Positions 32,349-61,807 of a stretch of DNA of 64,000 bases are shown one piece after another (within the stretch, counting starts at the first letter, position 1; every line of letters begins with the position of its first letter). Made by a program: the position numbers and the translations under genes. Where the stretch lies: the IMG/VR virus record IMGVR_UViG_3300010373_000042, positions 1 to 64,000 of that record. One strand, written 5' to 3'. Under the pieces are notes generated by a model, which saw only the letters and a program-made list of their open reading frames with translations, did no database searches and was not told the origin of the DNA. Origin of the DNA: a virus.

Positions 32349-34571
32349 ATGGCGGACATCAATCGGCTGATCCGGAACCACATCGACCGTGCCGCCGCGA
32401 AGGCGCAGCGCCAGCCATCGGATGGCCAGAAGGAAGCCGGCAACTATCGGAAGGGGAAAATCCGGTTTCACGGGTTGGACATCTCGATTGAGAATCCTCG
32501 CGGGTCCAACCGTTCTGGCGTCGGAAAGGATGGCAAGCCGTGGCGCGTCGCGCTTCCGGATCATTACGGCTATATCCGCCGGACCGAGGGCAGCGATGGT
32601 GATCACGTCGATTGCTACATCGGCCGCCATCCACTGAGTTCGCGGGTGTTCGTGATCGACCAAGTCGACGCAGACAGTAAGGAGCACGACGAGCACAAGT
32701 GCATGCTGGGCTACACCAGTGAGGAGCAGGCGCTGAGCGCCTATCGTCGTGCGTTTTCCGATGGTCGCGGCGATCACCGGATCGGATCGGTCAAGGAGAT
32801 GGACATCGCGCAGTTCAAAAACTGGCTGGAGCGCGTCGGCGGCTTGCCAAAATACGCGACTGGCGGGGCCGTCCACATGGCCGCCGGCGGCGTCCCCGGC
32901 ATGTTCGACGATCTCGTGCCCGCCGCACCGGCAGCAGATGCTCCTGCCGCCGCCGCGCCTGACCACGGCATGTTCGGCGATCTGGTGCCGACCAAGAAGC
33001 CCGGCCTGCCAGACGTCGGCGCGCCGCTGATCGGAAATGGCGGCCAGTTTTCGGGCGGCACCGATATTGGGAATGATTTCGCCGATTCCGCCGCCAAGAC
33101 CGCCAATGCCGCCATTCGCAATGCCCCTGCGAGCGCGGTCAATTTTGCCCATGACGTGGTCACCCCGTTCATCCATCCGGTTGACACCATGGAAAACATG
33201 AAGAACCTCGGGCTTGGCGTGCTGGAAAAGGCCGGGGTCACCTCGGGCGATTCGCATGAGAAATACGCCAACGCGGTGGGGAGGTTCTTCGCCGACCGCT
33301 ACGGCGGGTTCGACAAGGCCCGGCACACGCTTGAGACCGACCCGGTTGGCATGGCCGGCGACCTGTCGGCGATCCTGACCGGCGGCGAGACATTGCTGGC
33401 GCGCGCGCCGGGCGTCGCCGGCAAGGTCGGCGAAGTGGCTGGCGATATCGGCCGAACCGTGGATCCGATGCGCGCCGCGGCGCCGGTGGCGGAGACGGCA
33501 GGCAATGTGGCCGGCAATGTTGCGTCCCAGGTATTGGGCGTCACGACTGGCGTCGGAGCCGATCCGCTCAAGGTCGCGACCCGCGCCGGCTATGAGGGTG
33601 GTCCAGCGGCGCAAGCCTTCCGCGAGAACATCACCGGGGCAGCTCCGCTCTCGGACGCGGTCGACGAGGCGCGCGCCGCGGTGGCGCAACTACGGCAGGA
33701 GCGCGGCAACGCCTACCGGACCCAGATGGGGCCGATCAAGGCGGACAGCACCATCCTCGACTTCAACGACATCGATCAGGCGGTTGCCAACGCTCAAGGC
33801 ATCAAGACCTATTCCGGCCGCAGCGGCACCGGGCCGACGCAGAGTCTGTCGCCGAAAACCGAAGGCATCCGCAAGGAAATGACGGATGCGATCGACAATT
33901 GGAAAGGCCTCGATCCGGCCGAATTCCATACCCCCGAGGGCATCGACGCGCTGAAACAGCAACTCGGCGATATCCGCGACGGGACCGAGCCCAATACGCC
34001 GTCGCGCGTCGCCGCCGACCGCATCTACAATGCCGTGCGTCAGACCATCATCGATCAGGTGCCGGAATACGCCAAGGTCATGAAGGGCTACGAGGACGCC
34101 AGCAAACAGATCAAGGAAATCGAGACCACGCTGTCGCTGAAGCCGAACGTCAATGTCGACACCGCGCTGCGCAAGCTGCAATCGACCCTGCGCGACAACG
34201 TCAATACCTCGTTCGGGCGCCGGGCTGAACTGGCGAATTTCCTGGTCAGCGCCGGCGCGCCGAATCTCATGGAGAAGCTGGCCGGTCAGGCGCTGCATTC
34301 GTGGGTTCCGCGCGGGCTGGCGCGGCTGGCAACAATGGAGACCGTACCTGCGGTAGCGGGCGCGGTCGGAGCGGGCGCGACAGGTGCCGGACTGGCCGCC
34401 GCGGCAACGCTGCCGCTGATGTCGCCGCGGCTGGTAGGCAATGCCGCCTATGGCGCTGGTGTCGCCGGCCGATATGCCAATCCGGTGCTGTCCCGGCTGG
34501 CCCGCCCCGCGCGCCAGATCGGCCGTGTCACGGAACCGTTCCAGCCCGGGTTCAACCCCTACGCGCAGTAG
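32349..34571 (+). CDS. ejection protein with N-terminal inorganic-pyrophosphatase-like domain, 740 aa
   Basis: Residues 35-165 form the phage inorganic-pyrophosphatase-like domain of polyvalent proteins: GKIRFHGLDISIENPRGSNRSG, HYGYIRRTEGSDGDHVDCYIG, VFVIDQVD, MLGYTSEEQALSAY, VKEMDIAQFKNWL. The remainder is a long helical, alanine-rich virion part with a hydrophobic C-terminal stretch (AGAVGAGATGAGLAAAATLP). Polyvalent domains are thought to enter the cell with phage DNA and act against host defence. Confidence 0.78.
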   Translation: MADINRLIRNHIDRAAAKAQRQPSDGQKEAGNYRKGKIRFHGLDISIENPRGSNRSGVGKDGKPWRVALPDHYGYIRRTEGSDGDHVDCYIGRHPLSSRVFVIDQVDADSKEHDEHKCMLGYTSEEQALSAYRRAFSDGRGDHRIGSVKEMDIAQFKNWLERVGGLPKYATGGAVHMAAGGVPGMFDDLVPAAPAADAPAAAAPDHGMFGDLVPTKKPGLPDVGAPLIGNGGQFSGGTDIGNDFADSAAKTANAAIRNAPASAVNFAHDVVTPFIHPVDTMENMKNLGLGVLEKAGVTSGDSHEKYANAVGRFFADRYGGFDKARHTLETDPVGMAGDLSAILTGGETLLARAPGVAGKVGEVAGDIGRTVDPMRAAAPVAETAGNVAGNVASQVLGVTTGVGADPLKVATRAGYEGGPAAQAFRENITGAAPLSDAVDEARAAVAQLRQERGNAYRTQMGPIKADSTILDFNDIDQAVANAQGIKTYSGRSGTGPTQSLSPKTEGIRKEMTDAIDNWKGLDPAEFHTPEGIDALKQQLGDIRDGTEPNTPSRVAADRIYNAVRQTIIDQVPEYAKVMKGYEDASKQIKEIETTLSLKPNVNVDTALRKLQSTLRDNVNTSFGRRAELANFLVSAGAPNLMEKLAGQALHSWVPRGLARLATMETVPAVAGAVGAGATGAGLAAAATLPLMSPRLVGNAAYGAGVAGRYANPVLSRLARPARQIGRVTEPFQPGFNPYAQ

Positions 34572-39727: not shown

Positions 39728-39897
39728 TCGTCATCATCCTTCTCGGAAAAATCATGATGGAAGCCGACAGCGTGGATGTCGCTTGGCTTGGTGCGCAGCC
39801 GAGGCGTCAACGGGCCATCCTCCGGAATCCGAGGAGGGTTGATGCGCCGCAGATAGTCGCGCCGAATCGGACGCGGGCTCACTGGTCTATCACCCAT
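39724..39897 (-). CDS. hypothetical protein, 57 aa
   Basis: It starts inside the end of the DegT gene (overlap of 19 bases) and ends overlapping the HAD start. The sequence is basic then acidic (RRDYLRRINPPRIPEDG, FSEKDDDE). No motif. It fits between its coupled neighbours, which supports translation. Confidence 0.55.
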   Translation of the reverse strand: MGDRPVSPRPIRRDYLRRINPPRIPEDGPLTPRLRTKPSDIHAVGFHHDFSEKDDDE

Positions 39898-40997
39898 TTT
39901 TCCGCCGCCCGTTTGAACGCATCGCCAATCTGCTTGATCTGCTCGCCAGTCGGCGACCTCGCGCAGTTTTCGAAATACAGCAGCCTCCGGTCCTGCAAAT
40001 CCTCCGCCACCGGGCACGGCCGCGCGAATCGCGAAAATGCCGACATGCGATACAACGGATCGACGTAGCCTTCCTCGATCGGCACGCCGTCCTCGCGCAA
40101 CGCCGCGCATAACTCGGCCCGGTTCTTCTCCACCAGGAACGGGATGCAATAGTACGAATGCGTGCAGCCCTCCCGCACCACCGGCGGCCGCAATCCCGGA
40201 ATATCGCCGATCGCCGCAATGATCGCCTCGGCTTGCTCGACACGCTCGGCCACGATCTGCTTGCCGCGCCGCAGTTGCGTCAGCGCAATCGCCGCGCAGA
40301 CTTCCGGCATTCGGAGATTGAGGCCTATCGGTCCTCCGGTGTTTTCCCCGTGATTGATGAACGCGCGCATCTTCGCGGCTAGATCATCGTCGTCCGTCGT
40401 GCAGATGCCGCCTTCGCCGCACTGGATCGGCTTGTGGATGTTGAGCGACCAGACGCCGATATGTCCGATCGTTCCGGCGTATTTGCCATGCTCCATCGCG
40501 AACGGAGATTGCGCGTTGTCCTCAATCAATATACCGCGCAGAACCTCAGCGGTTCTCCTCGCTTCTTTGAGAGTTGCCGGGTGCCCGAACAGGTTAGTGA
40601 TGATCGAAGCTTTGACGTTCCCGTGATGCGGCGGACATTCCTGCAAGGAGAAATTCTGGTCCTCGATATCGCCGAAGATGACCTTGGCACCCAGAAACGC
40701 GGGGGCAGCGGCGGTCGCGCTCATGGTGAAAGGTGTCGTAATGACCTTATCGGTTGGATCATCTCCTATACCCGCAGCCGCACACGCCGCCAGCAGGCCC
40801 GACGTCGCACTATTGCACGCCACCGCATGCTTCACCCCGAATGTCTCGCACCACGCATCCTCCAGCGCGCAGACATTCCTGCCGCCGCGCTCCTTGCCGG
40901 CCAGATACCCGGACAGCGGGCCGTTTACCATGGCAGTGATCGCGGCCATGGTCTCGACCTTGCCGATGGTGTTGAATGGCTTGATCGTCCCGATCAT
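39879..40997 (-). CDS. DegT/DnrJ/EryC1-family aminotransferase
   Basis: From the ATG at 40997 (GGGAG eight bases upstream) it has 372 aa. The PLP lysine is K189 in WSLNIHKPIQCGEGG; ACNSATSGL, TPFTMSATAAAPAFLGA and IEDNAQS are family motifs. Enzymes of this family (PseC, LegC, SpsC) transfer an amino group to a 4-keto-6-deoxy sugar. It pairs with the dehydratase at 43114 and the GNAT next to it in a nonulosonic acid route. A much longer upstream reading (to 41477) crosses the GNAT gene in another frame and is rejected. Confidence 0.92.
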   Translation of the reverse strand: MIGTIKPFNTIGKVETMAAITAMVNGPLSGYLAGKERGGRNVCALEDAWCETFGVKHAVACNSATSGLLAACAAAGIGDDPTDKVITTPFTMSATAAAPAFLGAKVIFGDIEDQNFSLQECPPHHGNVKASIITNLFGHPATLKEARRTAEVLRGILIEDNAQSPFAMEHGKYAGTIGHIGVWSLNIHKPIQCGEGGICTTDDDDLAAKMRAFINHGENTGGPIGLNLRMPEVCAAIALTQLRRGKQIVAERVEQAEAIIAAIGDIPGLRPPVVREGCTHSYYCIPFLVEKNRAELCAALREDGVPIEEGYVDPLYRMSAFSRFARPCPVAEDLQDRRLLYFENCARSPTGEQIKQIGDAFKRAAEKWVIDQ

Positions 40998-41449
40998 ATC
41001 TGCGGCTCCCGTCGGTATTGCACGAAACCATCCTTCTGCCCGACCAGATCGAAACCGCACTGGGCGAAGATATTGCGCGAGCGATAATTGTCGCGTCTGA
41101 TGTCTGCGTTGATGGTGTACTCGGTCATGTAGCAGCACGCCTGCGCGAGTACCGTTCCGGCCAGCCCCTTGCCGCGGTGCGCCGGTGCCATTGTGATCGA
41201 CGCCTCGAATGTCATGGTGTCGTTCTTCTCGGCATCGAAGCGAACCACGCCGAGTTTTCCTTCGTAATTCTCGGCGATCAGGACGATATGCTCCGGGTAT
41301 CCGTGCATGACGTTGAACCGCATCCATTGGTCGTGATCCTCGCGCGGCACGGCGGCGGTCGAGCGGAAACACGCCAGCGTCACTGGATCGTTGCGCCACG
41401 CGAACAGGTCGTCGGCATCCTTGGGCATGGCGGGGCGAAGGGATATCAT
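40994..41449 (-). CDS. GNAT acetyltransferase, PseH/SpsD-like context
   Basis: The ATG at 41449 overlaps the upstream stop (ATGA), giving 151 aa. ISLRPAMPKDADDLFAWRNDPVTL, LGVVRFDAEKNDTMTFEASITMAPAHRGKGLAGTVL (acetyl-CoA loop RGKGLA) and SRNIFAQCGFDLVG are typical of GNATs acting on sugar amines. Directly upstream of the DegT gene, it probably acetylates the amine that DegT installs. Confidence 0.85.
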   Translation of the reverse strand: MISLRPAMPKDADDLFAWRNDPVTLACFRSTAAVPREDHDQWMRFNVMHGYPEHIVLIAENYEGKLGVVRFDAEKNDTMTFEASITMAPAHRGKGLAGTVLAQACCYMTEYTINADIRRDNYRSRNIFAQCGFDLVGQKDGFVQYRREPQI

Positions 41450-41640
41450 GGCAACCGTTTGCATGCTGGCGGCACATGATAATACGTGCTCAACGGCATT
41501 CCGGCCGGCCATATAGCGACCGAGACGATAAGTTCCGAGGGTGCAGCATCATCGTCGGCAGGACATCTAGCGTGGTGCATTCCCGCGCCAGTACCGACAA
41601 TCAGGCAACCAATTATCCAATAGCCCATCAGGTATTTCAT
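41446..41640 (-). CDS. small secreted or membrane protein, 64 aa
   Basis: A strong GAGGAG precedes the ATG at 41640. MKYLMGYWIIGCLIVGTGAGM is a signal or membrane segment; the rest has a few cysteines (ARCPADD, PPACKRLP). Coupled to the deacetylase upstream and GNAT downstream. Function unknown. Confidence 0.62.
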   Translation of the reverse strand: MKYLMGYWIIGCLIVGTGAGMHHARCPADDDAAPSELIVSVAIWPAGMPLSTYYHVPPACKRLP

Positions 41641-43123: not shown

Positions 43124-43971
43124 GACAATGCCTCCCGCAATTCGTCGACCGACATGCGGCGGGCGTGTTCGCTGGAATTTCCTTCCGCCATGCTCTCGTG
43201 ACGCTTCTCGAATGCCGGCAGCCCGCGCACGTCCATCTTGGCGCCCATGGCCTCGGCCAGATCGCCGAGCCGGTAGGCGGGGAGGGTGGGGATAGCGATC
43301 TCGCCGCCCTTCATGGTATCGGCGGTGCGCAATACCAGATCGACAGCTTCATCCATCGTCATGAAGAACCGTGTGCAGTCAGGATCAGTGACGGGCACCA
43401 CATCGGAGGTTTCGAGTATTCTGCGCCAAGTTGGGACGACCGAGCCGGTGGAGCACCAAACGTTGCCGTACCGGACAGCAGCGAAACGCGGACCGTTATT
43501 TCCTCGCGTGTTGTTGGCGGCAAGGAAAAGCGATTCCGCAAATGCCTTGCTGGTCCCGTAGGGGCTAACCGGCTCGAAAGCCTTGTCAGACGACAGGGCA
43601 ACCACCCGGTCAACACCAGCATCGGTCGCGGCCTCGATCACGTTCGCCGCGCCGTCGATGTTGGTCTTTTTCACTTCAAGCGGATTGTATGCGCCGACCT
43701 CTATTCGCTTCAGTGCGGCGGCATGGATCACGACCTCGATATCTTCCATCGCCCGGCGTAACCTGTCGCGGTCCCGGACATCTCCGATGAAGTAGCGCAT
43801 GCGCCAGTCTGCGGCGGGTAGCACAGCCAGATCGCGCGCCAGTTCGGCCTGCCGATGTTCATTGCGGGAATAGACCACAATGCGCAACGGCCCTTCGTTC
43901 ATCCCCAGCAGACGCCGCACGAACGCCGTGCCGAAAAATCCCGAACCGCCGGTGATGAGGACCGATTTCAA
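43114..43971 (-). CDS. CapD/PseB-like UDP-sugar 4,6-dehydratase
   Basis: The start is a TTG overlapping the upstream stop, with GAGGG before it. GGSGFFG (8-14) binds NAD; GDVRDRDRLRRAM, HAAALKRIEVGAYNPLEVKKTNIDGAANVI and the YGTSK catalytic pair (Y138, K142) follow the PseB/CapD pattern. It would start the pathway from UDP-GlcNAc. At 285 aa it is shorter than PseB (about 330). Confidence 0.88.
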   Translation of the reverse strand: MKSVLITGGSGFFGTAFVRRLLGMNEGPLRIVVYSRNEHRQAELARDLAVLPAADWRMRYFIGDVRDRDRLRRAMEDIEVVIHAAALKRIEVGAYNPLEVKKTNIDGAANVIEAATDAGVDRVVALSSDKAFEPVSPYGTSKAFAESLFLAANNTRGNNGPRFAAVRYGNVWCSTGSVVPTWRRILETSDVVPVTDPDCTRFFMTMDEAVDLVLRTADTMKGGEIAIPTLPAYRLGDLAEAMGAKMDVRGLPAFEKRHESMAEGNSSEHARRMSVDELREALSCA

Positions 43972-45986
43972 GATGCCCTCACCATCGGTCCGACGCTCGC
44001 GCCGTTCAATCGATCGGCAATGTCACCCTTGTCCATCGCTGCCCGCAAAACGCCGAGCGCGTGATCGTAGGACTTCAGTATACGTTTGATCTCCGACGGA
44101 CCATGCGCAGCGCAAAGATTGTGACTCGCCGTGATCAGCGTTCCCGATGCCACCATTTCCTTGCGGAATAGCGCGGCAATCTGGTCGTCACGGAATTTCA
44201 GCCGCTTGAACGGTGCCGCGCCGAACAGCCGGATTGCATCGCCGGTGCCATGCTTGAACATCAGCGCCTCGGCCTGCATCGCGAGATCATCGCCCACCTG
44301 CCAGAGCTTCGGTATCACCTCCTCTCGCTCCAGCTTCTTGATGGTGGCGATGCCAGCGGCAAGCGACAGCGTTTCGCCGAACATGGTGCCGCTGTAGAAA
44401 ATGTTATCCGGTGGCTCGAACCGCTTCATGATGTCGCGGCGGCCGACGATGGCCGACAGCGGCATACCGTTCGCCATCGCCTTGCCGAACGTCGCAAGGT
44501 CTGGTGTGACACCCCACAGCTTCTGCGCCCCGCCGAGCGAGAAACGAAAGCCAGTGATGACTTCGTCGAAGATCAGGAGGGTTCCGGTTTCATCACAGAC
44601 ATTCCGCAGAAGTTGGAGATATTCCGGATCAGCCTCGGGCTCGACGATAGCCGCGGCGAACTGGTAGTTTTTGGCGCGCTTCGGGATGCTGGCGATATGT
44701 TCCGCGCTACCGTAGGAAACCCGCGTGGTCAGATGCCGAACATCCTCCGGCACACCCAGGTTGCGTTCGACCGACCAATCCTGCCAGCCATGATAGCCGC
44801 CGCACATCAGGATTCGATCACGGCCCGTATGCGCGCGCGCAAGTCGGATCGCTGCCGACGTAACGTCGGTGCCGGTCTTGCCGAACCGAACCATTTCGGC
44901 GCAGGGAATCAGTCGGCAGAGCGTTTCCGCGAGCTCCGATTCAAGTTCTGTGGCGAGAGAGAATGAAACCCCAGAACAAAGCTGTCGTCGGACGGCCGCG
45001 TCAACGTCAGGGTCGCGGTAGCCGAGAATGTTTGGGAGCAGTGCGGACACGAGATCGACGTATTCTTGACCGTCAACGTCGTAAGCGATGCCGCCTTGTC
45101 CATGCGAAATGAACAGAGGGCTTGGTTGCGGATACTGGAGATGACTTTTGCTGAACGTTTGCGCGGCGAGCGGGATGACTTCGCGCGCTTTTTCGAACTG
45201 CGCTTGAGACCTTTGATAGCTACGCGCATAGATCGGCTCCTCGGCCAGCGCTTCGACGTAGCGCTCGTTACAGGGATGATGCGAATTGAGTTGCCGCAGC
45301 GTCGGGTGTTCGTCCAACAGCCCGAGCATATCGAGTTGGGACGGAGGGCCCTTGTCCCACGGCCACAGCGACGCAATGGCTTTGCAGAAATCATAATCGT
45401 CGGCGGTGTCGAGTACCCAGCGCTCGTCCTGCAAGCCGGGAATCGGATTGATGACCGTCTCGGCCGGAAAGCGTGACCGATTGCGCTCGATCCAGGTGCA
45501 GACACCGTCGCGGTCGAGCGGGCGTGTGGCTTCCGCATCGGCTGCCGCAAGCGCCTCGTAGGTGAACGCCTGCACGTCGAGACCGTCGGGATAGGTGCGG
45601 GGCGATACGTTGGTGACAAACGCCGCACCGGTCTGCTTCTGCAAACGAACAACGGCGCCGATGACCTGAGGGTCCAGAAAGGGGCAATCTCCGGTCAACC
45701 TCAAAAGTACATCGGCGCCGCTAGCGTTGGCGCATCCGACGAAGCGCGACAGCACATCCGTTTCGGACCCTCGCCAACAAAAAAAGCCGTGGTCATCGCA
45801 GAAATCCGCGATCACGTCGTCCGCCAGCAGCGTGGACGTGGCGATCCACACCTCATCAACGCCCGGCGCGGCCGCGCAGGCTCGGTGGCACCACTCCAAC
45901 ACAGGGTGGTGACCGAGCGGCATCAGGACCTTGCCGGGCAAGCGCGTTGATCCGATACGGGCCTGGATGACGGAGACGACTTTCAT
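43968..45986 (-). CDS. fusion of SpsF-type cytidylyltransferase and class III (HemL-like) aminotransferase
   Basis: From the ATG at 45986 it has 672 aa. Residues 1-245 are a nucleotidyltransferase (VVSVIQARIGSTRLPGKVLMPLG, LLRLTGDCPFLDP), as in SpsF/NeuA/PseF enzymes that make CMP-sugars. Residues 265-672 are a glutamate-1-semialdehyde-aminomutase-like PLP enzyme (PLFISHGQGGIAYDVDGQEY, CGGYHGWQDW, LLIFDEVITGFR, FGKAMANGMP with lysine near 502). The fusion puts sugar activation and an amino transfer in one chain. Start overlaps the oxidoreductase stop. Confidence 0.9.
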   Translation of the reverse strand: MKVVSVIQARIGSTRLPGKVLMPLGHHPVLEWCHRACAAAPGVDEVWIATSTLLADDVIADFCDDHGFFCWRGSETDVLSRFVGCANASGADVLLRLTGDCPFLDPQVIGAVVRLQKQTGAAFVTNVSPRTYPDGLDVQAFTYEALAAADAEATRPLDRDGVCTWIERNRSRFPAETVINPIPGLQDERWVLDTADDYDFCKAIASLWPWDKGPPSQLDMLGLLDEHPTLRQLNSHHPCNERYVEALAEEPIYARSYQRSQAQFEKAREVIPLAAQTFSKSHLQYPQPSPLFISHGQGGIAYDVDGQEYVDLVSALLPNILGYRDPDVDAAVRRQLCSGVSFSLATELESELAETLCRLIPCAEMVRFGKTGTDVTSAAIRLARAHTGRDRILMCGGYHGWQDWSVERNLGVPEDVRHLTTRVSYGSAEHIASIPKRAKNYQFAAAIVEPEADPEYLQLLRNVCDETGTLLIFDEVITGFRFSLGGAQKLWGVTPDLATFGKAMANGMPLSAIVGRRDIMKRFEPPDNIFYSGTMFGETLSLAAGIATIKKLEREEVIPKLWQVGDDLAMQAEALMFKHGTGDAIRLFGAAPFKRLKFRDDQIAALFRKEMVASGTLITASHNLCAAHGPSEIKRILKSYDHALGVLRAAMDKGDIADRLNGASVGPMVRAS

Positions 45987-46900
45987 TGACCACCCCACCC
46001 CTTAATCTCGCGATGCTCGTAAGTCTGATCCAGACCGGCCATCTTCCGTACGTCCAGCAACACCCGCAGCGTTGCCAATCCGTCACGCGCGCTCGCTCCC
46101 GGCGTGATCTTGCCGTCGATCCGGTCGATGAACGCTTCCATCTCCGCGCGGTAATCCTTGTCGTAATCACCCGGCATGTGATTGGAGGTCGTTCCGAGCG
46201 ACAGCAGACGCTTCGGCAAATCGACGCCAATATTTCGTTCCTCCCCAGCGATCCAGAACTCGCGAATTTCATTCGGGGTGATGAAGTCGAGATGAAATCG
46301 CGACCGTGCGCCGCTGTCATGCTCCAGCACGAAGTCGGCGATTATGTCGGTCATTTCACCGAGGTTCATGCAGACGTTCGCACTGATGGCCTTCGCGGGC
46401 CCGAGCAAGTGCAGCGCTAGATCCACCTCATGCGAGCCGGTATTCAGGATCACACCGTCGCTGACGTACGGCGGTTTTGCCGTCCGGGTCGCACAGATAA
46501 ACGACGCCCACAGCGGGTTCCCAATATGCCCTGCGACGATCCATTCCTTTGCCTGCTGCACGCACGGATGCAGGCGCAGATTGTTTCCCATCATAACGAT
46601 CAGGTTTTTGTTGGCGGCCGATTCCAGAATCGCCGGCAGCGCTCCGACCGCGATGGAAATCGGCTTCTCGACCATCACATGCTTTCCGCGCTCGACCGCA
46701 GCGCGGACGCCGCTTTCATGGAACGGCGACGGCGTGGCAATCACCGCGGCATCGCACCAGTCGTAAAGTTGGTGCTCAAACCTGAAGTCTGGCTTTCCGA
46801 TAATGATGGGATCGTAGACCTTTACGTCATGACCGAGCTCCCGCGCATTGGCTGCATGCCGCTGCCCAATCGAGCCATGGCCGACGATGCCGATCTTCAT
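45983..46900 (-). CDS. Gfo/Idh/MocA-family oxidoreductase
   Basis: The ATG at 46900 overlaps the methyltransferase stop and gives 305 aa. MKIGIVGHGSIGQRHAANA is the NAD(P)-binding site; VIATPSPFHESGVRAAVERGKHVMVEKPIS contains the catalytic EKP. The C-terminal domain (GVILNTGSHEVDLALHLLG) is normal. It may oxidise or reduce a sugar ring position in the cassette pathway, like PtmA-type proteins; substrate unknown. Confidence 0.9.
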   Translation of the reverse strand: MKIGIVGHGSIGQRHAANARELGHDVKVYDPIIIGKPDFRFEHQLYDWCDAAVIATPSPFHESGVRAAVERGKHVMVEKPISIAVGALPAILESAANKNLIVMMGNNLRLHPCVQQAKEWIVAGHIGNPLWASFICATRTAKPPYVSDGVILNTGSHEVDLALHLLGPAKAISANVCMNLGEMTDIIADFVLEHDSGARSRFHLDFITPNEIREFWIAGEERNIGVDLPKRLLSLGTTSNHMPGDYDKDYRAEMEAFIDRIDGKITPGASARDGLATLRVLLDVRKMAGLDQTYEHREIKGWGGQ

Positions 46901-49752: not shown

Positions 49753-51414
49753 ATGACCCTTTCCCGCACCGCGCTCGTCACGCTCGCCGGCGCTGCCCGA
49801 CGCCTCAAGGAAATCGAGGAGGCAAAACGGCTGGAGGACTCGTTTTACGAGTTCGTCAAAGCCGCATGGCCACATTTCGACCCGTCGGACTTCGTCGGGA
49901 ACTGGCATCTCCAGCAGATGTGCGACCATCTGGAGGCGGTGGCGCGCGGCTATATTAGCCGGCTCCTGATCAACGTGCCGCCGCGCACCGGCAAGACCAA
50001 CATCGCCTCAATCTGCTTCGTGCCGTGGGTGTGGGCCCAGCGCGAAAAAGGCCCGCTAATGGGGCCGCAAGCCTCGTTTTTCTATGCGTCTTATGCCGAA
50101 CAACTGGCCTTGGAGCATTCGCTGAAGGCCCGTCGGCTGATCGAATCGCCGTGGTATCAGCGGATGTGGGGAGGGCGCTACAAGCTGGTGTCCGACCGCA
50201 ACAAGGTCTCGCATTTCGAGAACAACAAGGGCGGCTACCGGCTGGCGTCGTCGGTGGACGCCCGAAGCACGGGCTGGGGCGCGTCCGCGATCTTCGCCGA
50301 CGACCCTCATCTGGTGAAAGAGGCCGAATCGGACGTCGTCCGCGAGGGCGTCGTGCGGTGGTGGATGGAAAGCATGCCGTCCCGCCTCAACGATCGCCGG
50401 ACCGGTGCCATGGTCATCATCATGCAGCGCGTGCACGAGGGCGACGTCGCCGGCCACGTGCTGGCCAGCGATCTCGGCTACGTCCATTTCTGCGTGCCGA
50501 TGTGCTACGTGCCATGCCAGCACGTCAATGCGTGGGTTGGCGAGCAAATTCAAACGTTTATCGGGGAGGATATCGACGATATCGAGGAGGACGACATCTT
50601 CTGGGTCGATCCCCGGACCGAGGAGGGCGACCTGCTTTGGCCAGAGCGCTATCCGGCCACCGAAGTCGTCAAGCTGGAAAAGGAACTCGGGCCCTACGGA
50701 TTCGCCGGCCAATACCAGCAGGACCCGGCGCCGCGCGGCGGCGGCATCATCCGGCGCGAGTGGTGGCAGCCGTGGGACAAGGAAACCGCCGAGAAGAATG
50801 GCTGCGTCCCGGAAAAATACCCCGGTTTCGAATACATCCTCGCCGCGCTGGACGGCGCGCTGACCGAAAAAGAGGAAAATGACCCGTCGGCGCTGTCGAT
50901 CTGGGGCATTTTCCGCGATCCGAACGGCAACCCGAACATCTTCCTGATGTATTGCTGGGCCGAGAAGTACCAGATCCACGATCTCGCCAAGCGCGTCGGC
51001 GAAGATTGCCGGCAATTCAAGGTCGACCGGCTGCTGATCGAAAACAAGGCGTCCGGCCACTCGGTGAGCCAGGAACTGGCCCGGCTGTTCGGCTCATACG
51101 AATTCGGCATCGAACTGATCGATCCCCGGACCGGCTTTATCAAATCGCCCGACAAGGTGGCCCGGCTACAAAGCATCGTGCACTTATTCAGCGAAGGCAT
51201 GGTCTACGCGCCTGACAAGACGTGGGCCGACGATATGATCAAGCAATGCGCAACGGTGCCGAGAGCGATCCATGACGACCTCGCCGACACCTGCAGCATG
51301 GCGCTTTTGTACCTCCGCCGCGCCAACCTGATTGTGCGTCGCGAGGAGCGCGAGGTCGAACTGGAGGATGAGACCCGCTACCGACCCCGGACCGGCGCAT
51401 TGTATCCGGCCTGA
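49753..51414 (+). CDS. terminase large subunit
   Basis: The 553-aa protein has a packaging ATPase: Walker A-like VPPRTGKT (75-82), Walker B near AIFADDPH, and a coupling segment MVIIMQRVHEGDVAGHVL. The C-terminal nuclease domain starts at ILAALDGALTEKEENDPSALSIWG with further acidic residues (DRLLIENKASGHSV). It packages DNA with the small subunit encoded 36 kb away. The first gene of the head block. Confidence 0.95.
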   Translation: MTLSRTALVTLAGAARRLKEIEEAKRLEDSFYEFVKAAWPHFDPSDFVGNWHLQQMCDHLEAVARGYISRLLINVPPRTGKTNIASICFVPWVWAQREKGPLMGPQASFFYASYAEQLALEHSLKARRLIESPWYQRMWGGRYKLVSDRNKVSHFENNKGGYRLASSVDARSTGWGASAIFADDPHLVKEAESDVVREGVVRWWMESMPSRLNDRRTGAMVIIMQRVHEGDVAGHVLASDLGYVHFCVPMCYVPCQHVNAWVGEQIQTFIGEDIDDIEEDDIFWVDPRTEEGDLLWPERYPATEVVKLEKELGPYGFAGQYQQDPAPRGGGIIRREWWQPWDKETAEKNGCVPEKYPGFEYILAALDGALTEKEENDPSALSIWGIFRDPNGNPNIFLMYCWAEKYQIHDLAKRVGEDCRQFKVDRLLIENKASGHSVSQELARLFGSYEFGIELIDPRTGFIKSPDKVARLQSIVHLFSEGMVYAPDKTWADDMIKQCATVPRAIHDDLADTCSMALLYLRRANLIVRREEREVELEDETRYRPRTGALYPA

Positions 51415-51458: not shown

Positions 51459-54005
51459 ATGGCCGCACCCACGACCCTTCGCCTGGTTGATCCGGAACAG
51501 CCGCAGGAGCAACTTGCCCCGGCGACGTTCGACCTTGGCGAGGGCGATACCGGTGTCACCATCGACGAAAACGGCATCGCCCGGATCGAACATCCCGATG
51601 GTTCGGTGACGTTTGACGAACATCCGGCCCGCGACAAGCCGGAAAGCGACGACAAGAACTTCTACCGCAACCTCGCCGACGATATAAACGCCGACGATCT
51701 CGGCATGATCGCGTCCGATTTGCTCACTGGGATCGATCTCGACGACCAGTCGCGCAAGGACTGGCTACAGGCGCGCGCCGCGTTCATTCGGCTATTGGGA
51801 CTCAAGCTGGAAGAGCCGCGCGGCGACACCGGTTCGGCCTCGGCCCCGCTGGAAGGGATGTCGTCGATCCGGCATCCGCTGATGCTCGAGGCCACGATCC
51901 ATTTTCAGGCCAACGCGCTCGGCGAACTGTTGCCGGCGGCCGGTCCCGTCAAGGTTCGCAACGACCTTCCGATGCGGCCCGATGCGCCAGCGCTGCCGGC
52001 ACCCGCCGCACAACCGCCCACCGCCCCGCCTAATATCGCAGGGGCTGCTGCCCCGCCGATGCCCGGGCCACCCCCGGGCATGCCGCCAGCGGCCGCCGCG
52101 CCGGGTATCGGCCACAACGGGCCGCCCGAAGGGCAGGCGATGGACGATTTGGGCTCCGCGCTCGAAAAGGACATGAATCATTACCTGACGGTGACGGCGA
52201 CGGAATATTATCCCGACACCGACCGCATGATGTTTTACGTCGGTTTCGGCGGCGATGGCTTCAAGAAGGTCTACAATTGCCCGCTTCGCCGCCGCCCGGT
52301 CTCGGAATCGGTCGACGCCGAGGACATCATCGTCTCGGATTCGGCGACCGACATCCGCAACTGCGGCCGCGTCACCCACCGGATCAAGATGCGCCCGTCG
52401 GTGCTGAAACGGATGCAGATCGTCGGCGCCTACCGCGACGTGCCGGTGGGCCAGCCCAATATCGCACAGACGTTGACCGCGCCGGAACAGGAGAAGGCCG
52501 AGATCGGTGGCTACCGTCCGCAGCCGATGCAGCCGAAAGACGGCAAGTTCGAGGTCTACGAGTGCTACTGCGAACTCGACCTCGACCAGTTCGCGCCGGA
52601 GCAGTTCAAGGGCAAAGGCCTGCCGCTGCCCTACGTCGTCACGCTGGAAAAGGACAGCCGCCAGGTTCTCGCCGTCACCCGCAACTGGGATGAGGAAGAC
52701 GAGCAGGCGCTGGCCAAGCAGTTCTTCGTCCAGTTCCCGTTCATCCGCGGTCTTGGCTTCTACGGTCTCGGGCTAGGCCACATCCTCGGCAATGTCACGA
52801 TGGCGCTGACCGCGATCTGGCGCATCATGATCGACAACGGGATGTTCTCCAATTTCCCGGGCTTCCTGATTTCCAAGGGAGCGACGCGGCAGAACACCAA
52901 CAACATGAGGGTGCCGGCTGGGTCGGGCTATCCGATCGACCTGCCGCCGGGCATGAAGATGGGCGATGCGGTGATGCCGCTGCCTTATAAGGAAACCGGG
53001 GCTTCGTTCACCGCGCTTGGCGTGCACATCGAGGAAGTCGGTCAGCGCCTCGGCCAGACCGCCGAATTGAATATCGGCGAGGGCAAGCAGGACGTTCCGG
53101 TCGGCACCACCATGGCCCTGATCGAGCAGGCCACCAAGATCATGGACTCCGTGCACAAGCGGCTGCACGCCGCGCAAGCGCAGGAATTCCAGTTGCTGAA
53201 AGAGCGCTTTCGCGAGGACCCGGAGGCATTCTGGCGCCACAACAAGCGGCCGGCGCGGGAATGGACCATCGAGCAATTCAAACAGGCGCTGGAGCAGCGC
53301 GAGCTCGTGCCGGTCGCCGATCCGAACAATCCGACCAGCCTGCACCGCATCGCGAAGGCCACGATCATCGACACGCTAGTCACCAAATATCCGCAGGACA
53401 TGGACAAGCGCGCCGCGCTGAAGCGGATCATGCGGATCGCCGACATCGACAGCGAAGGCCTGATGCTGGGCCAGACCGCGCCGCCACCGCCCGACCCGCG
53501 CATGTTCGCGATCCAGTCCAAGGCGCAGGCGGAAGCGATGAGCGCGCAGATCGACAAGGCCAAACTTTTGCTACAGCAGCAGAACCAGCAGGCCAGTTTC
53601 GCCGACAAGGCCGCCGAGCGCGCCTTCAAGGAGCGCATGCAGCAGTTCGAAATGTACCTCGAACAGTTGCGGGTGCAGGCCGAGGCGATCATTCACGCCC
53701 ACGACATCCAGCGCGACAACATGAAGGCGCAGTCGGAGGTGGCAACCAATCACGTCCAAGCCCTGCACGGCATGGCGATGGACGAGGCCAGCGGGCAGGC
53801 GGAACTGGCGCGCGGCGGTCAGGTGCATACTCACGAAATCATCAAGCAGCACGAGCGGAATCAGCAGGAACTCGCCGCGCAACGCGAGCGCCACGAGCAG
53901 CAACTGCGGCAGAACGACGAGACGCACGAGCAGAAGCTGGAACAGATCAGACAGCAGGCGGCGGCAAAGCCGAAGATCAAGTCGAAACCGAGCGGAGAAA
54001 AATAG
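51459..54005 (+). CDS. portal protein, 848 aa
   Basis: After an acidic N-terminus (DPEQPQEQLAPATFDLGEG) the core includes TASAPLEGMSSIRHPLMLEATIHFQANALGELLP, DMNHYLTVTATEYYPDTDRMMFYVGFGG, RNCGRVTHRIKMRPSVLKRMQ and KFEVYECYCELDL, the pattern of large podovirus-type portals. A proline-rich insert (about 175-215) and a long glutamine-rich C-terminal coiled coil (about 680-840) are notable. It follows the large terminase, as expected. Confidence 0.85.
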   Translation: MAAPTTLRLVDPEQPQEQLAPATFDLGEGDTGVTIDENGIARIEHPDGSVTFDEHPARDKPESDDKNFYRNLADDINADDLGMIASDLLTGIDLDDQSRKDWLQARAAFIRLLGLKLEEPRGDTGSASAPLEGMSSIRHPLMLEATIHFQANALGELLPAAGPVKVRNDLPMRPDAPALPAPAAQPPTAPPNIAGAAAPPMPGPPPGMPPAAAAPGIGHNGPPEGQAMDDLGSALEKDMNHYLTVTATEYYPDTDRMMFYVGFGGDGFKKVYNCPLRRRPVSESVDAEDIIVSDSATDIRNCGRVTHRIKMRPSVLKRMQIVGAYRDVPVGQPNIAQTLTAPEQEKAEIGGYRPQPMQPKDGKFEVYECYCELDLDQFAPEQFKGKGLPLPYVVTLEKDSRQVLAVTRNWDEEDEQALAKQFFVQFPFIRGLGFYGLGLGHILGNVTMALTAIWRIMIDNGMFSNFPGFLISKGATRQNTNNMRVPAGSGYPIDLPPGMKMGDAVMPLPYKETGASFTALGVHIEEVGQRLGQTAELNIGEGKQDVPVGTTMALIEQATKIMDSVHKRLHAAQAQEFQLLKERFREDPEAFWRHNKRPAREWTIEQFKQALEQRELVPVADPNNPTSLHRIAKATIIDTLVTKYPQDMDKRAALKRIMRIADIDSEGLMLGQTAPPPPDPRMFAIQSKAQAEAMSAQIDKAKLLLQQQNQQASFADKAAERAFKERMQQFEMYLEQLRVQAEAIIHAHDIQRDNMKAQSEVATNHVQALHGMAMDEASGQAELARGGQVHTHEIIKQHERNQQELAAQRERHEQQLRQNDETHEQKLEQIRQQAAAKPKIKSKPSGEK

Positions 54006-54793: not shown

Positions 54794-55005
54794 CGGCGAT
54801 CAAAAGCCAGCATTCGCGAACGTTCGAGCAGCTTGCCGGCGAACACCGAAAGGCGCTGATCGAATCACTGTCGGCCGGCGTCCCAGAGGACTATCCGGCC
54901 TACCGACAATTGGTTGGACGAATCCAGGGCATCGACGATGCGCTGAAAATGTCCGGCGAAGCAGATTTCAAACTCAGTGGAGACGAACCTAATGAGCGTG
55001 CATAG
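54790..55005 (+). CDS. hypothetical small protein, 71 aa
   Basis: Overlaps its neighbours. The sequence (FEQLAGEHRKALIESLSAGVPEDYPAYRQLVGRIQGIDDALKM) is helical and resembles small phage head proteins next to GroES-like genes. Function unknown. Confidence 0.62.
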   Translation: MTAIKSQHSRTFEQLAGEHRKALIESLSAGVPEDYPAYRQLVGRIQGIDDALKMSGEADFKLSGDEPNERA

Positions 55006-55402
55006 CGCACCGAAGATCGAACAAATCAGCCGGGCTGTGGATCCCAAGCAGGGGATCATCAAGGCCGTCGGCGATCTAAGCGGCATCGGCGTTTTCAGCG
55101 ATCTCGTATTGCTGGGGACCTTCATCCGCAACGAAAAGACCGCCGGCAACATCATTCTGCCGAAGGAATATCTGCAGGAAGACGAGCATCAGGGAAAAGT
55201 CGGGTTAGTCCTGAAGTCCGGACCGCTCGCCTACGCGGATTGGGAGGAAGGCGACGAGGTCGGCAAGAATGCGCAGCCGCATACCTGGGTCGTCTATGCG
55301 ATCAAGGATAGCTGGCCCGTGCAGATCAACGGCGTCGCTTGCCGCTTCATTCCCTATGACAAGCTGCGGGCCCGCGTAACCGATCCCAAGATGGTGTTCT
55401 GA
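54992..55402 (+). CDS. GroES-like phage protein
   Basis: The ATG at 54992 follows GGAG and gives 136 aa. GVFSDLVLLGTFIRNEKTAGNIILPKEYLQEDEHQGKVGLVLKSGP and WVVYAIKDSWPVQINGVACRFIPYDKLRARV follow the GroES/Cpn10 beta-barrel with a mobile-loop-like segment. Phage GroES homologues help fold the major capsid protein. The genes around it fit that role. Confidence 0.75.
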   Translation: MSVHSAPKIEQISRAVDPKQGIIKAVGDLSGIGVFSDLVLLGTFIRNEKTAGNIILPKEYLQEDEHQGKVGLVLKSGPLAYADWEEGDEVGKNAQPHTWVVYAIKDSWPVQINGVACRFIPYDKLRARVTDPKMVF

Positions 55403-57928: not shown

Positions 57929-58843
57929 ATGCCCGTTTCACTCGCACAAGAAAAAGACCTCCTTCTCCCCGGACTCTGGGGTATCGACGGCCGCTATCCG
58001 ATGATCGAGCGGCAGTGGCCGCAGATCTTCAAGCAGGTCGATTCCCAGATGGCGCTGGAGCGCCGCGCCTCCATGCGGTTCTTGGGCTATGCCCAGCTCA
58101 AGAACGAAGGCGGCGTATCGGCAACCGACAACAACGCCGGCCAGCGCTACATCTACAACGCCCAGCACTTCGAAATCGCGCTGATGTACGCGATCACGCG
58201 GCCGGCGATCGACGACAATCTGTACAAGGCGGAGTTCGGCCCGAACAACGACGGCCTGATGGAAGCGTTCAAGGAGACCGAGGAGGTCTACGCCGCCAAC
58301 ATCATCAACAACGCCACCGTGTTCAACACCTCGGTGCAGGGCGATGGCGTGTCGCTGATCAACACCGCGCATCCGATCGACGGCAATACCATCGCCAACC
58401 AGCCGTCGCCGGACGTCTCGCTGAACGAAACCTCGCTGCTCAATGCCGCGATCACCATCCGCTCGACCTGGAAGAACAACGCTGGCCTGAAGATCCATGC
58501 CCGCGGCCAGAAGCTGATCGTGCCCGCCAACCTCGAGCCGATCGCCGCCCGGCTGTTCCGCAGCGAATTGCGGGTCGGCACCGGCAACAACGACATCAAT
58601 GCGGTCCGGGAAATGGAGCAGTCCTTCAAGGACGGCTACATGGTCTACGACTACCTGACGTCGTCATTCGCGTGGTTCGTTCTGACCAATCATCCCGGCC
58701 TGGTGTTCTTCAACCGCAAGCCGTTCGAGACCGATATGAGCGTCGAGTTCTCGACCGACAACCTCTTGGTGAAGGGCTACCAGCGCTATGTGCCCAGCTA
58801 CTACGACTGGCGCCATATCTGGGGCACGTTCCCGACCTCGTGA
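57929..58843 (+). CDS. major capsid protein
   Basis: The 304-aa protein shows a HK97-like capsid pattern: DSQMALERRASMRFLGYAQLKNEGG, YAITRPAIDDNLYKAEF, LNAAITIRSTWKNNAGLKIHARGQKLIVPANLEPIAARLFRSELRVG, and MSVEFSTDNLLVKGYQRYVPSYYDWRHIWG near the end. The size and position after the scaffold gene support it. Type within the HK97 fold not assigned. Confidence 0.85.
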   Translation: MPVSLAQEKDLLLPGLWGIDGRYPMIERQWPQIFKQVDSQMALERRASMRFLGYAQLKNEGGVSATDNNAGQRYIYNAQHFEIALMYAITRPAIDDNLYKAEFGPNNDGLMEAFKETEEVYAANIINNATVFNTSVQGDGVSLINTAHPIDGNTIANQPSPDVSLNETSLLNAAITIRSTWKNNAGLKIHARGQKLIVPANLEPIAARLFRSELRVGTGNNDINAVREMEQSFKDGYMVYDYLTSSFAWFVLTNHPGLVFFNRKPFETDMSVEFSTDNLLVKGYQRYVPSYYDWRHIWGTFPTS

Positions 58844-58861: not shown

Positions 58862-59842
58862 ATGACCATCACCGCACTTTCCGGTCCGGTTGTCCAGTTT
58901 GGCATCACCACCACCTCAAGCGGTGGTGGCCTGACCGGGCTCGACACGGAGCACAACAGCCAGCGGGCACCGATGGTGGCCGACCTCGGCGATTCCATGA
59001 TGGATCCCCGAGTATCGTACAATTATGACCCCGGCTCCGGCGTTACCGCCAAGACCTTTGCGTTCTACAACAACGTCGGCGTGGTCGATTATGTCCCGAC
59101 CACGCTGAATGCGAGCGCCTTCGTCTCGGCGACGGTCGTGGCCACCGGCGTGACCGGCGCCTTTCCGCTGAATGCGGCATCGTCCGCTGGCGGCACCTAT
59201 TCCACCACCATTATCGCCCCGGAAACCTATACGGCCACCGGAACGCTGCTCGCGATCGATTCCACGGCCGCCTACCTGCCGATGGGCAGTGACGGAACGG
59301 TCGCCTTGTGGAATCCGGGCGCCGGCACCGGCCGCAACATCACGATCAAACTGTCCACTACCGGTGACGCCGGGACCTATTCGGTAGCCGGCCGCGATAT
59401 GTACGGCTTCAAGATGACCGAGACCATCACGGCCGGCGGCGCGACCACCCTGGCGGGTAAGAAGGCCTTCAAATACATCTCGTCGATCACCAATTGCACT
59501 ACGCCGGTTTCGACCGGCATCAGCATCGGGTTTGGCGACGTCTACGGCCTGCCGTTTTACTCGCCCTATGCGGGCCTGAATACGCTGATTGCCCTGTCTT
59601 CGGCGGCCAGCGTTTCCGCGACCATCGTGCCCTCGACCGCGAACTTCAATGCGGCATTGGCTTCTACCGCCACCGCGACCTCGACCACCGCCGATGTCCG
59701 CGGCACGTTCGCATCCACCACCGCGAGCAACGGAACCACCCGTCTGCAGATCGTCGTGACGCCCGCAGCTTCCGCAATCGCCGCGATTACCTCGACCAAT
59801 GTGGCTCCCTTGTTCGGCGCCACGCAATTTTCCTCGGTCTAA
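58862..59842 (+). CDS. capsid-associated beta-rich protein, 326 aa
   Basis: SGPVVQFGITTTSSGGGLTGL, KTFAFYNNVGVVDYVPTTL, VAGRDMYGFKMTETITAGGATTLAGKKAFKYISSIT and IGFGDVYGLPFYSPYAGLN form a low-charge beta protein, similar in type to decoration proteins. It follows the capsid gene. Function not assigned. Confidence 0.65.
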   Translation: MTITALSGPVVQFGITTTSSGGGLTGLDTEHNSQRAPMVADLGDSMMDPRVSYNYDPGSGVTAKTFAFYNNVGVVDYVPTTLNASAFVSATVVATGVTGAFPLNAASSAGGTYSTTIIAPETYTATGTLLAIDSTAAYLPMGSDGTVALWNPGAGTGRNITIKLSTTGDAGTYSVAGRDMYGFKMTETITAGGATTLAGKKAFKYISSITNCTTPVSTGISIGFGDVYGLPFYSPYAGLNTLIALSSAASVSATIVPSTANFNAALASTATATSTTADVRGTFASTTASNGTTRLQIVVTPAASAIAAITSTNVAPLFGATQFSSV

Positions 59843-59854
59843 AGGAGCCGAACC

Positions 59855-60091
59855 ATGAGCCATCACAAGCACCACATGAAGCACAAGAAGGCCCGCGGCG
59901 GCTCGATGTCCGGGCGCGATGACTATGCGGGCAGCGGCGAGCCGGACGTCATCAAGGATGCCGAGAAGAAGAAGCACGGCGGCGGCGTCCACGTCGGCAA
60001 GGTGCACGGCCACAAGGGCAAGCATCGGGTCAAGAAAGCTCGCGGGGGTAGCTGCGATGCAAACCCTTTCTCGAGCGCTCACCGGGGCTAG
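59855..60091 (+). CDS. small basic head protein, 78 aa; probable -1 frame fusion with the next ORF
   Basis: SHHKHHMKHKKARGGSMSG, VIKDAEKKKHGGGVHVGKVHGHKGKHRVKKARGGS. The frame ends at 60091, but a CCCTTTC slippery heptamer at 60064-60070 lies in phase for a -1 shift. Shifting there joins 72 codons to the downstream frame, giving a 144-aa fusion. Without the shift the product is 78 aa. Confidence 0.7.
   Translation: MSHHKHHMKHKKARGGSMSGRDDYAGSGEPDVIKDAEKKKHGGGVHVGKVHGHKGKHRVKKARGGSCDANPFSSAHRG
60064..60070 (+). other. candidate -1 frameshift site
   Basis: CCCTTTC fits X-XXY-YYZ with the zero-frame codons CCT and TTC. After a -1 shift the frame is open to 60288. A GAGCGCTC palindrome at 60073 and a weak stem (CGCCT/AGGCG) about 25-40 bases downstream might stimulate it. 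Confidence 0.4.
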
Positions 60092-60288
60092 AACGCGCCT
60101 CTGGTGGTAAGGCGGGCCACTGGATTTCCGGAGCGATCAAGCATCCCGGTGCGCTGCATCGGGCTTTGCACGTTCCTGAGGGCGAGAAGATCCCCGCGGC
60201 CAAAATGGCCAAGGCGTCGCATTCCGATAATCCGCGCGTCCGACGCATGGCCGGTCTCGCGAAGACGCTGAAGGGGATGCATCGCTAA
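60070..60288 (+). CDS. downstream ORF without start codon, reached by -1 frameshift
   Basis: In the -1 frame 60070-60288 encodes GGKAGHWISGAIKHPGALHRALHVPEGEKIPAAKMAKASHSDNPRVRRMAGLAKTL, a pattern I know from small phage proteins in this genomic position. No ATG, GTG or TTG lies upstream in frame. Either the gene is decoded by frameshift from 59855 or it was broken by a recent mutation or sequence error. The stop overlaps the next start (TAATG). Confidence 0.5.
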   Translation, partial: LERSPGLERASGGKAGHWISGAIKHPGALHRALHVPEGEKIPAAKMAKASHSDNPRVRRMAGLAKTLKGMHR

Positions 60289-60644
60289 TGCCCAACCCGC
60301 AATACGTCACACTGACATCGACCGGCACCTCGGCAACGATTGCCCTCGACTACCGTCAGAAGGGACCGTTCAACGCGTCCGTTGCGGTCACGGGATCGAC
60401 GTCCGGAACCTTCACGTACACTGTCCAGTACACGCTTGATGACAAGCAGTTCCTGGCCAATCTTGGTCCGCAGCTCGGATCATCCCTGAGCAGCCGGACG
60501 CCAGTGTTCTTCTCCGACGCCAACCTTGCTGCTGTGAGCTCCAACGGCACCTCCAATTACATGTTTCCGGTAGCTGGAGTGAATTTGCTGTTGTCGGCGG
60601 TCTCCTCTGCCGCAGTGACGATGTGTGTCATCCAGGGAGGCTAA
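60288..60644 (+). CDS. beta-rich virion protein, 118 aa
   Basis: YVTLTSTGTSATIALDYRQKGPFNASVAVTGSTSGTFTYTVQYTLDD is a single Ig-like or head-tail-type beta domain, ending SAAVTMCVIQGG. Start coupled to the preceding stop. Function not assigned. Confidence 0.65.
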   Translation: MPNPQYVTLTSTGTSATIALDYRQKGPFNASVAVTGSTSGTFTYTVQYTLDDKQFLANLGPQLGSSLSSRTPVFFSDANLAAVSSNGTSNYMFPVAGVNLLLSAVSSAAVTMCVIQGG

Positions 60645-60647
60645 TCT

Positions 60648-61112
60648 GTGGCCCCCGTTCAACTCGTAGGCATCGGCGTCACGATCCCATCTGTTGGCGT
60701 TTCACTCACTCCCACGACGTCCCAGTTGCCGTGGGGAGGGGAGAGTCTGCGTGGTATCGGCGTTTCGCTTGGTTCAGCGGCACTGACGCTCTCAAATGCA
60801 ACGGTGAACTCCGGATCTAGCATCGGGACAGTTATAGGGGACTTCTCCGTCGTAAATGGTTCTACGAGACCATACACGTTCTCGCTTACTGCAGGAACCA
60901 GTCTATTCACGATCAGCGGATCGACGTTGGAAGTGAATGCTGCCCTGAGCGTCGGATCAGTCGCGATCACGGCGCAGGCGAGTGATACCGGCACGTCGAT
61001 CATTTCAGGTCCTTTCCTGATCACCATCACGTCCTCTTCGTCATCAGGCACCAACGGGCCGATGGACTTCAGCGTTCCCGGAAATATTGGAATCACCGCA
61101 GCTCTCCCATGA
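60648..61112 (+). CDS. cadherin/Ig-like repeat protein, 154 aa
   Basis: GTG start. ALTLSNATVNSGSSIGTVIGDFSVVNGSTRPYTFSLTAGTSLFTISGSTLEVNAALSVG is a cadherin-like beta domain as found in adhesive virion proteins. C-terminus GPMDFSVPGNIGITAALP. Likely exposed on the particle or on the host surface. Confidence 0.62.
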   Translation: MAPVQLVGIGVTIPSVGVSLTPTTSQLPWGGESLRGIGVSLGSAALTLSNATVNSGSSIGTVIGDFSVVNGSTRPYTFSLTAGTSLFTISGSTLEVNAALSVGSVAITAQASDTGTSIISGPFLITITSSSSSGTNGPMDFSVPGNIGITAALP

Positions 61113-61120
61113 GGACAATC

Positions 61121-61807
61121 ATGCGCAAATATCTGCTAATCGCCCTTTCGCTGCTGCTGACCACTCCCGCGATGGCGGACTGGACGGGCAAGGATGCCTC
61201 CGGGGCGACGATCACATTCAAGAACGCAAATACATGCTCGAGCGTCGTCTGCGTGCCGGTCGCGGAACCAGTAGACAGCACAGGTGCGGCGTTCGGTGTC
61301 AGCGGCAACCCCTTCTTCATCAGTGTTGCATCATTACCGCTACCCAGCGGCGCGGCGACCGCAGCCAATCAGTCTACGGAAATTACGTCTCTGGCGACGA
61401 TCGCCACCAATACCGGCGCGGCAATACCGGCTGGTACAGCCACCATCGGCAATACCGGGACAGACCCGTCCTCTGGCAAGGCAACGCCCACCTTCGCCTT
61501 CCTGGCGCTCCCGCAGACCACCACGACCCAGATGATCGCGTTGAGCGGAACCAAGGTCACCTACGTCACATCGCTGCATTTCATGGCGAGCGGCGCGGTG
61601 AACGTGACGCTGAAATACGGCACCGGCACCAATTGTGGGACGGGCACGACCACGCTTGACGGTCCTTTCCCGCTTGCAGCACAGGCCGGCATGGCGATCG
61701 GCTCTGGAACCGGGGCCATCTTGATTGTCCCGGCCGGACAAGAACTCTGTGTCACCACGGACGCGAATATGTCCGGCACCGTTGGCGCAACCTATCAGCA
61801 GTTCTGA
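61121..61807 (+). CDS. secreted beta-rich protein with Sec signal, 228 aa
   Basis: The ATG at 61121 follows GAGGA and starts MRKYLLIALSLLLTTPAMADW, a clear Sec signal peptide. The mature part is beta-rich (GKDASGATITFKNANTC, MIALSGTKVTYVTSLHFMASGAVNVTLKYG). Signal peptides are rare on virion proteins, so this may act on the host envelope in infected cells or lysogens. Confidence 0.65.
   Translation: MRKYLLIALSLLLTTPAMADWTGKDASGATITFKNANTCSSVVCVPVAEPVDSTGAAFGVSGNPFFISVASLPLPSGAATAANQSTEITSLATIATNTGAAIPAGTATIGNTGTDPSSGKATPTFAFLALPQTTTTQMIALSGTKVTYVTSLHFMASGAVNVTLKYGTGTNCGTGTTTLDGPFPLAAQAGMAIGSGTGAILIVPAGQELCVTTDANMSGTVGATYQQF

Follow-up and report, generated by a model that had tools for sequence, protein, structure and literature searches.

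A small gene in the head operon of a soil-type phage very probably yields two proteins through a -1 ribosomal slip. The window that we analyzed comprises 64,000 nucleotides (positions 1 to 64,000 of virus record IMGVR_UViG_3300010373_000042, which is 71,572 bases long), and in it a C_CCU_UUC heptamer would direct -1 frameshifting to give a minor 144-aa extended head-operon protein besides a 78-aa form; judging from the sequence, we assign this reading a probability of about 0.88. An initial annotation of this DNA had proposed a -1 programmed frameshift between two head-operon ORFs, and that central proposal is strengthened by an invariant in-phase heptamer, a downstream frame that lacks a start, the absence of the heptamer where the downstream domain is absent, and the existence of relatives in which the two parts are fused in frame.

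The assignment of the pair to a head operon, also made at the outset, is supported. The major head protein gene, the marker of the operon, lies directly upstream (57929..58843 (+); PHROG 371, E=5e-8; Pfam Mu-like_gpT, 20.6 bits against a cut-off of 20.1), the head module also contains terminase (49753-51414) and portal (51459-54005) genes further upstream, both recognized in a PHROG scan, and a GroES-like gene (54977-55402; PHROG and Pfam scans), and this gene order is shared with relatives. The pair itself begins with the second gene past that of the major head protein; in between is a 326-aa ORF of unknown function (58862..59842 (+)), which had no match in PHROG and Pfam scans and has counterparts in the same place in most members of the class. 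The upstream member of the pair, ORF1, is preceded by a Shine-Dalgarno-like AAGGAG (59842..59847 (+)) located 7 nt 5' of its ATG. Neither frame of the pair matched a tail chaperone in PHROG or Pfam, and the downstream ORFs at 60288-60644 and 61109-61807 had no match in the PHROG scan. The first of these is the next gene (118 aa, 60288..60644 (+)), which relatives have too; its ATG overlaps the stop of the -1 frame in the sequence TAATG (60286-60290), an arrangement that suggests translational coupling. We also note, elsewhere in the window, two minus-strand ORFs (39879-41477 and 43968-45998) matching PHROG aminotransferase families, an unusual cargo at such a phage size, and an ORF at 32349-34571 whose residues 1-160 match a segment that occurs in several phage proteins of very large size (phrog_37402, phrog_30335 and phrog_10089).

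ORF1 (59855..60091 (+)) opens with ATG and encodes a 78-aa protein rich in Lys, Arg, His and Gly with the C-terminal end ARGGSCDANPFSSAHRG; homologues with the same ending are present in relatives. It reads the heptamer at 60064..60070 (+) as C_CCT_TTC, so the phase assigned in the initial annotation is correct, and its zero-frame stop TAG (60089..60091 (+)) lies 18 nt 3' of the heptamer. The -1 frame extends from stop to stop over 60052..60288 (+), overlaps ORF1, and codes for a conserved GAIKHPGAL domain whose conserved segment reads GHWISGAIKHPGALHRALHVPEGEKIPA... Following a -1 slip, the next codon would be CTC (60070-60072), translation of this frame would begin at 60070, and the computed product is a fusion of 144 aa, in agreement with the length given earlier. 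The claim that the downstream frame has no start codon also stands, as there is no ATG, GTG or TTG ahead of the conserved domain. The earliest such codon in the -1 frame is TTG 60166, within the domain, so there is no usual start before GAIKHPGAL; for the same reason, that codon was rejected as a start of the domain. Across the 17 ORFs of the window, in-phase XXXYYYZ heptamers occur at 11 of 6499 codon junctions, with no CCCTTTC among them, and CCT accounts for 31 of 421 Pro codons (the third base is C in 43%). Given how rare in-phase heptamers are in these ORFs, CCCTTTC at 60064 is more than would be expected by chance. A second, nested heptamer, A_AAC_CCT (60061..60067 (+)), overlaps it and is found only in the window among the listed CCCTTTC loci.

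Relatives were collected by means of the downstream domain, from the best 80 of 484 matches to the -1 frame in viral contigs, at least 120 stretches from a domain-pattern search, the best 80 of 556 matches to a second query, and 11 from a scan of bacterial genomes. Collapsing identical cores left 173 distinct cores among the matches listed, and 18 of these have CCCTTTC 40-120 nt 5' of the domain, with 17 of the 18 in the -1 phase. In all 17 in-phase loci listed, Pro is CCT, Phe is TTC and the preceding third base is C, the last despite a preceding codon that may be CAC, AAC, TCC or CGC (His, Asn, Ser or Arg). As a control, CCT fills 8 of the 51 cells in the three Pro columns of the domain in the same loci, every one of the domain's first 27 codon columns shows variation, and the initial 90 nt of the domain have a median nucleotide identity of 74% (lowest 64%). 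When CCCTTTC, a gap of 40-70 and WIxGAIKHPG were used as a scan, the lengths of all 11 matches were of one phase. The heptamer itself played a part in the selection of both the domain-picked and the pattern-picked CCCTTTC sets, but not in that of the capsid-picked sample described below. On this sequence comparison, the CCCTTTC heptamer is under selection and conserved beyond what the amino acids require.

The arrangement of the two frames varies considerably among relatives. A crude configuration rule filed the 173 cores among the matches listed as 44 fused in frame (for example, L046), 53 standalone and self-started, 35 start-less '-1', 6 '-1' with a start, 7 '+1' without and 11 with a start, 8 of other kinds, and 9 lying too close to the end of a contig; it misfiled L050 and L224 (freshwater type) as fused and L230 as '+1', and filed L253, which has CCCTTTC and a TTG start, as 'start near'. 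The 35 start-less '-1' cores among the matches listed comprise 16 with CCCTTTC, 13 with GGGGGAG...TAA, and 6 of smaller types: C_CCT_TAG (two, one of which, L272, carries GGGGGGC as well), G_GCT_TTY (three) and G_GGG_GA (one). No ATG, GTG or TTG lies between heptamer and domain in any of the 16 start-less CCCTTTC loci listed; in L014 and L015 a start-type codon is located 30 codons 5' of the domain, upstream of the heptamer. Comparison with homologues, which the initial annotation had suggested as a check, revealed both single ORFs and self-started copies, yet these sit in other lineages without the heptamer and so support frameshifting rather than refute it.

A separate sample of 38 loci was picked by the major head protein alone, making its selection independent of the heptamer. 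The downstream domain is present in 17 of these, 13 with CCCTTTC (including L318, which has a TTG start too) and 4 with GGCTTTY. Another 14 loci (12 distinct) have an ORF1 with a PFSSA-type ending and no domain after it, and the remaining 7 end too early to tell about the domain. CCCTTTC was found in none of the 14 domain-less loci, where Pro is encoded by CCG, CCA or CCC and never by CCT, and the last 60 nt of the 12 distinct domain-less ORF1s contain no canonical in-phase heptamer of any kind. Counting distinct start-less rows, CCCTTTC is present in 12 of 15 with the domain versus 0 of 12 without it (Fisher p=3.7e-5, kinship ignored). On the head-protein tree, the states with and without the domain are interleaved, and L297, the sister of the window (81/88 support), has the same NPFSSAHRG end with a CCG codon and no domain. 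In a test that respects kinship, there were four supported independent pairs; on average, 3.8 of the 4 show the heptamer tracking the domain (p=0.125) and none shows the reverse, four pairs being too few to reach 0.05. We also observed the VP2-like domain as a free-standing ATG gene in one phage, G007 (the record of L327; 37757-37930, minus strand; L335). In G007 this gene is far from the head operon and the ORF1 of the phage is without the extension; no free-standing domain was found in 8 other domain-less records, which may be fragments.

Some start-less members lack CCCTTTC, so another route to the domain may exist, and the domain might likewise be produced separately in the window, without any fusion, by ribosomes that terminate and then reinitiate at an unconventional start close to the stop codon of ORF1. 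Many relatives do have a self-started domain (53 standalone and others, among the matches listed), it is once free-standing and far from ORF1, and among the other start-less classes are members in which ACG or GCG replaces the GTG of relatives and members with a Shine-Dalgarno-like GGGGGAG at the stop. Reinitiation leaves unexplained, however, both the invariance of the heptamer and its absence from domain-less relatives, and it must also contend with the 16 start-less CCCTTTC loci among the matches listed, in which the stretch from heptamer to domain is devoid of ATG, GTG and TTG; we consider it unlikely. Less likely still is that the shift is real but serves coupling, with ribosomes in the -1 frame ending at TAATG and feeding the next gene, and the fusion itself mattering little. 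The overlap of the -1 stop with the next start in the window is what such coupling would use, but the domain is strongly conserved as a protein, with synonymous variation, and persists fused or separate elsewhere, which indicates a function of its own.

The remaining two explanations we regard as highly improbable. Since in-frame fused relatives exist, one could imagine that a base was lost through sequencing error or gene decay and that one ORF was thereby split; the identical split and heptamer nevertheless recur in 16 other distinct loci on other contigs (among the matches listed), and the same error would be needed in every locus, which refutes a sequencing error as far as sequence can. 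Transcriptional rather than ribosomal slippage would result in the same fusion. It usually needs homopolymers far longer than three C or three T, and the runs at this site are only CCC and TTT, the conserved unit being exactly the heptamer in codon phase.

Ribosomal frameshifting at the heptamer may be assisted by a downstream structure. Folding predicts a 5-nt spacer (60071..60075 (+)) followed by a 3' stem-loop (60076..60114 (+); arms 60076-60088 and 60097-60114), a possible stimulator, and across loci the co-varying stem begins about 4-6 nt 3' of the heptamer. When arms were exchanged among 17 loci, own arms gave -16.9 compared with -14.2 kcal/mol for swapped arms, and 3 of 20,000 permutations were as good; by arm pairing the window ranks 4th, L015 16th and L014 17th, and there is little stem in L014, L015 and L247. 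Local folding z-scores for the window only were 0.24 (50 nt) and -1.98 (80 nt). Sliding-window z-scores across loci did not single out the slip site, as the values 3' of the heptamer average only about -0.3 to -0.9 and are equaled in some other places. A conserved Shine-Dalgarno-like stimulator 5' of the heptamer was not seen by eye in the alignment of loci. On the evidence of the pairing arms, the 3' stem is a likely frameshift stimulator. The initial annotation had noted the palindrome GAGCGCTC, which is indeed present and exact at 60073-60080 but is not conserved in an alignment of 15 loci, and for this reason was rejected as the stimulator; having no loop, it cannot form a hairpin by itself.

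In the mechanism that we propose, ORF1 encodes a small basic head-operon protein, and most ribosomes translating it would end at TAG 60089 to yield the 78-aa form. Some of those on C_CCU_UUC would slip, both tRNAs moving back one base (Pro from CCU to CCC and Phe from UUC to UUU), aided by the stem beginning some 5 nt further on, and would then continue in the -1 frame to produce the 144-aa form with its C-terminal VP2-like basic helical domain. In published E. coli assays, C_CC.U_UU.C is among the high-level frameshifting heptamers, H_HH.U_UU.Y is among the most efficient, and the shift-prone tetramers include U_UU.Y and C_CC.Y (PMC4066793). These rankings fit C_CCU_UUC, C_CCU_UAG and also G_GCU_UUY, which keeps the U_UUY tetramer; the G_GGG of the freshwater group does not fit the E. 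coli shift-prone motifs. That the slip would take place in the real host, and at what rate, we infer.

Freshwater relatives join the two frames differently, at GGG GAG TCN followed by TAA or TGA, where the upstream ORF ends (L050, L064, L074, L079, L118, most of L217-L227, L243 and L248), and they are mostly start-less and have no known efficient slip site. Among the 132 other upstream Gly codons of 18 distinct sequences of this type, which were chosen for the very motif counted in them, just 3 are GGG; at the junction, GGG is present in 13 of the 13 start-less members among the matches listed. The GGG_GAG_UCN stop element is conserved, and its G_GGG is not among the motifs known to shift efficiently. 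In some members of the '+1' group, the domain begins GTG ACT GAC (compare L175 and L245), and at the place of this GTG, L115 and L205 (Rhizobium lusitanum prophage) have ACG or GCG, a lost or unusual start. In L239 and L029, the upstream ORF and the domain are in one frame with a single TAG between them and no start after it. Tentatively, and at slightly worse than even odds, we suggest that one head-protein module has been attached in many ways (in frame, with its own start, as a free-standing gene, and through C_CCU_UUC, G_GCU_UUY, C_CCU_UAG or GGG_GAG_UCN), forming a natural series of site birth, change and loss that includes at least one undescribed recoding or restart signal. If this is true, one can follow in this family how such frameshift sites emerge, are altered and disappear with the gain and loss of a domain.

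Both products would be basic, with 18 Lys+Arg and 11 His in the 78 aa of ORF1 and 31 Lys+Arg and 16 His in the 144 aa of the fusion. The domain bears a weak resemblance to VP2 of fuselloviruses: 17 of the 18 family members that were compared with Pfam PF25632 match it at E<=0.05, and relative L064 scores 27.3 bits (cut-off 27), whereas the domain of the window matches the start of PF25632, over the first ~20 positions, with 17.3 and 18.5 bits, below that curated cut-off. Fuselloviruses are archaeal viruses unrelated to the window phage, and their VP2 is described as a virion DNA-binding protein (PMC9608457). An AlphaFold2 model of the domain has three helices (mean pLDDT 70.5) and no match among PDB folds at E<=0.001, and a sequence search of the PDB returned nothing better than E=0.37. 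Among phage records we found no close annotated copy; there was one partial match to the window frame, in Tunturiibacter phage Tunturi_3, and 8 distant phage records carry a stand-alone relative of the domain. MW202675.1, the nearest annotated capsid relative, has no gene annotated as VP2-like. Position in the operon and the sub-threshold Pfam match suggest that both forms are most likely minor virion proteins, with the extension binding or organizing packaged DNA.

The initial annotation described frameshifting here as a new use, which is overstated, since head genes read in this way are known from the T7-like 10A/10B pair (PMC4283147) and from coat genes of T3, A2 and the Listeria phages A118, A500 and PSA (sources including PMC5009743). 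Our searches, which covered open papers, turned up no account of either this gene pair or its switching among fused, frameshifted, self-started and free-standing forms. The frameshift trick itself is therefore known, and what seems not to have been described previously is frameshifting in this gene family, which would join the few phage head genes known to rely on it. The system has a natural control built in, namely close relatives with the same gene but with neither the extension nor the slip site, and it offers a testable clue as to how virions may receive a VP2-like domain at a fixed, minor ratio. In the start-less phages, the domain will escape gene callers.

Like the lambda G/GT tail assembly chaperone, the pair would use a -1 slip to join two ORFs that overlap within a structural operon; unlike G/GT, it lies beside the capsid gene, and its frames have no PHROG or Pfam match to a tail chaperone. 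Ig-like extensions of phage structural proteins, as in A2 and T3, are joined in frame by some phages, whereas others attach them by frameshifting, and together with A118, A500 and PSA they share with the present family a C-terminal module that is attached in either way (PMC5009743). The module here, however, is non-Ig-like by all tests made, and also occurs as a self-started neighbor or a free-standing gene. Another parallel is with 10A/10B of T7 and T3, where -1 slippage shortly before a head gene ends gives part of its product a C-terminal extension (PMC4283147, PMC5009743). In T7 the X_XX is G_GU, which the GGCTTTY members resemble. In contrast to 10A/10B, the protein extended here would be a small Lys/Gly-rich one whose gene comes second after that of the major head protein; its extension is VP2-like, and the site is C_CCU_UUC.
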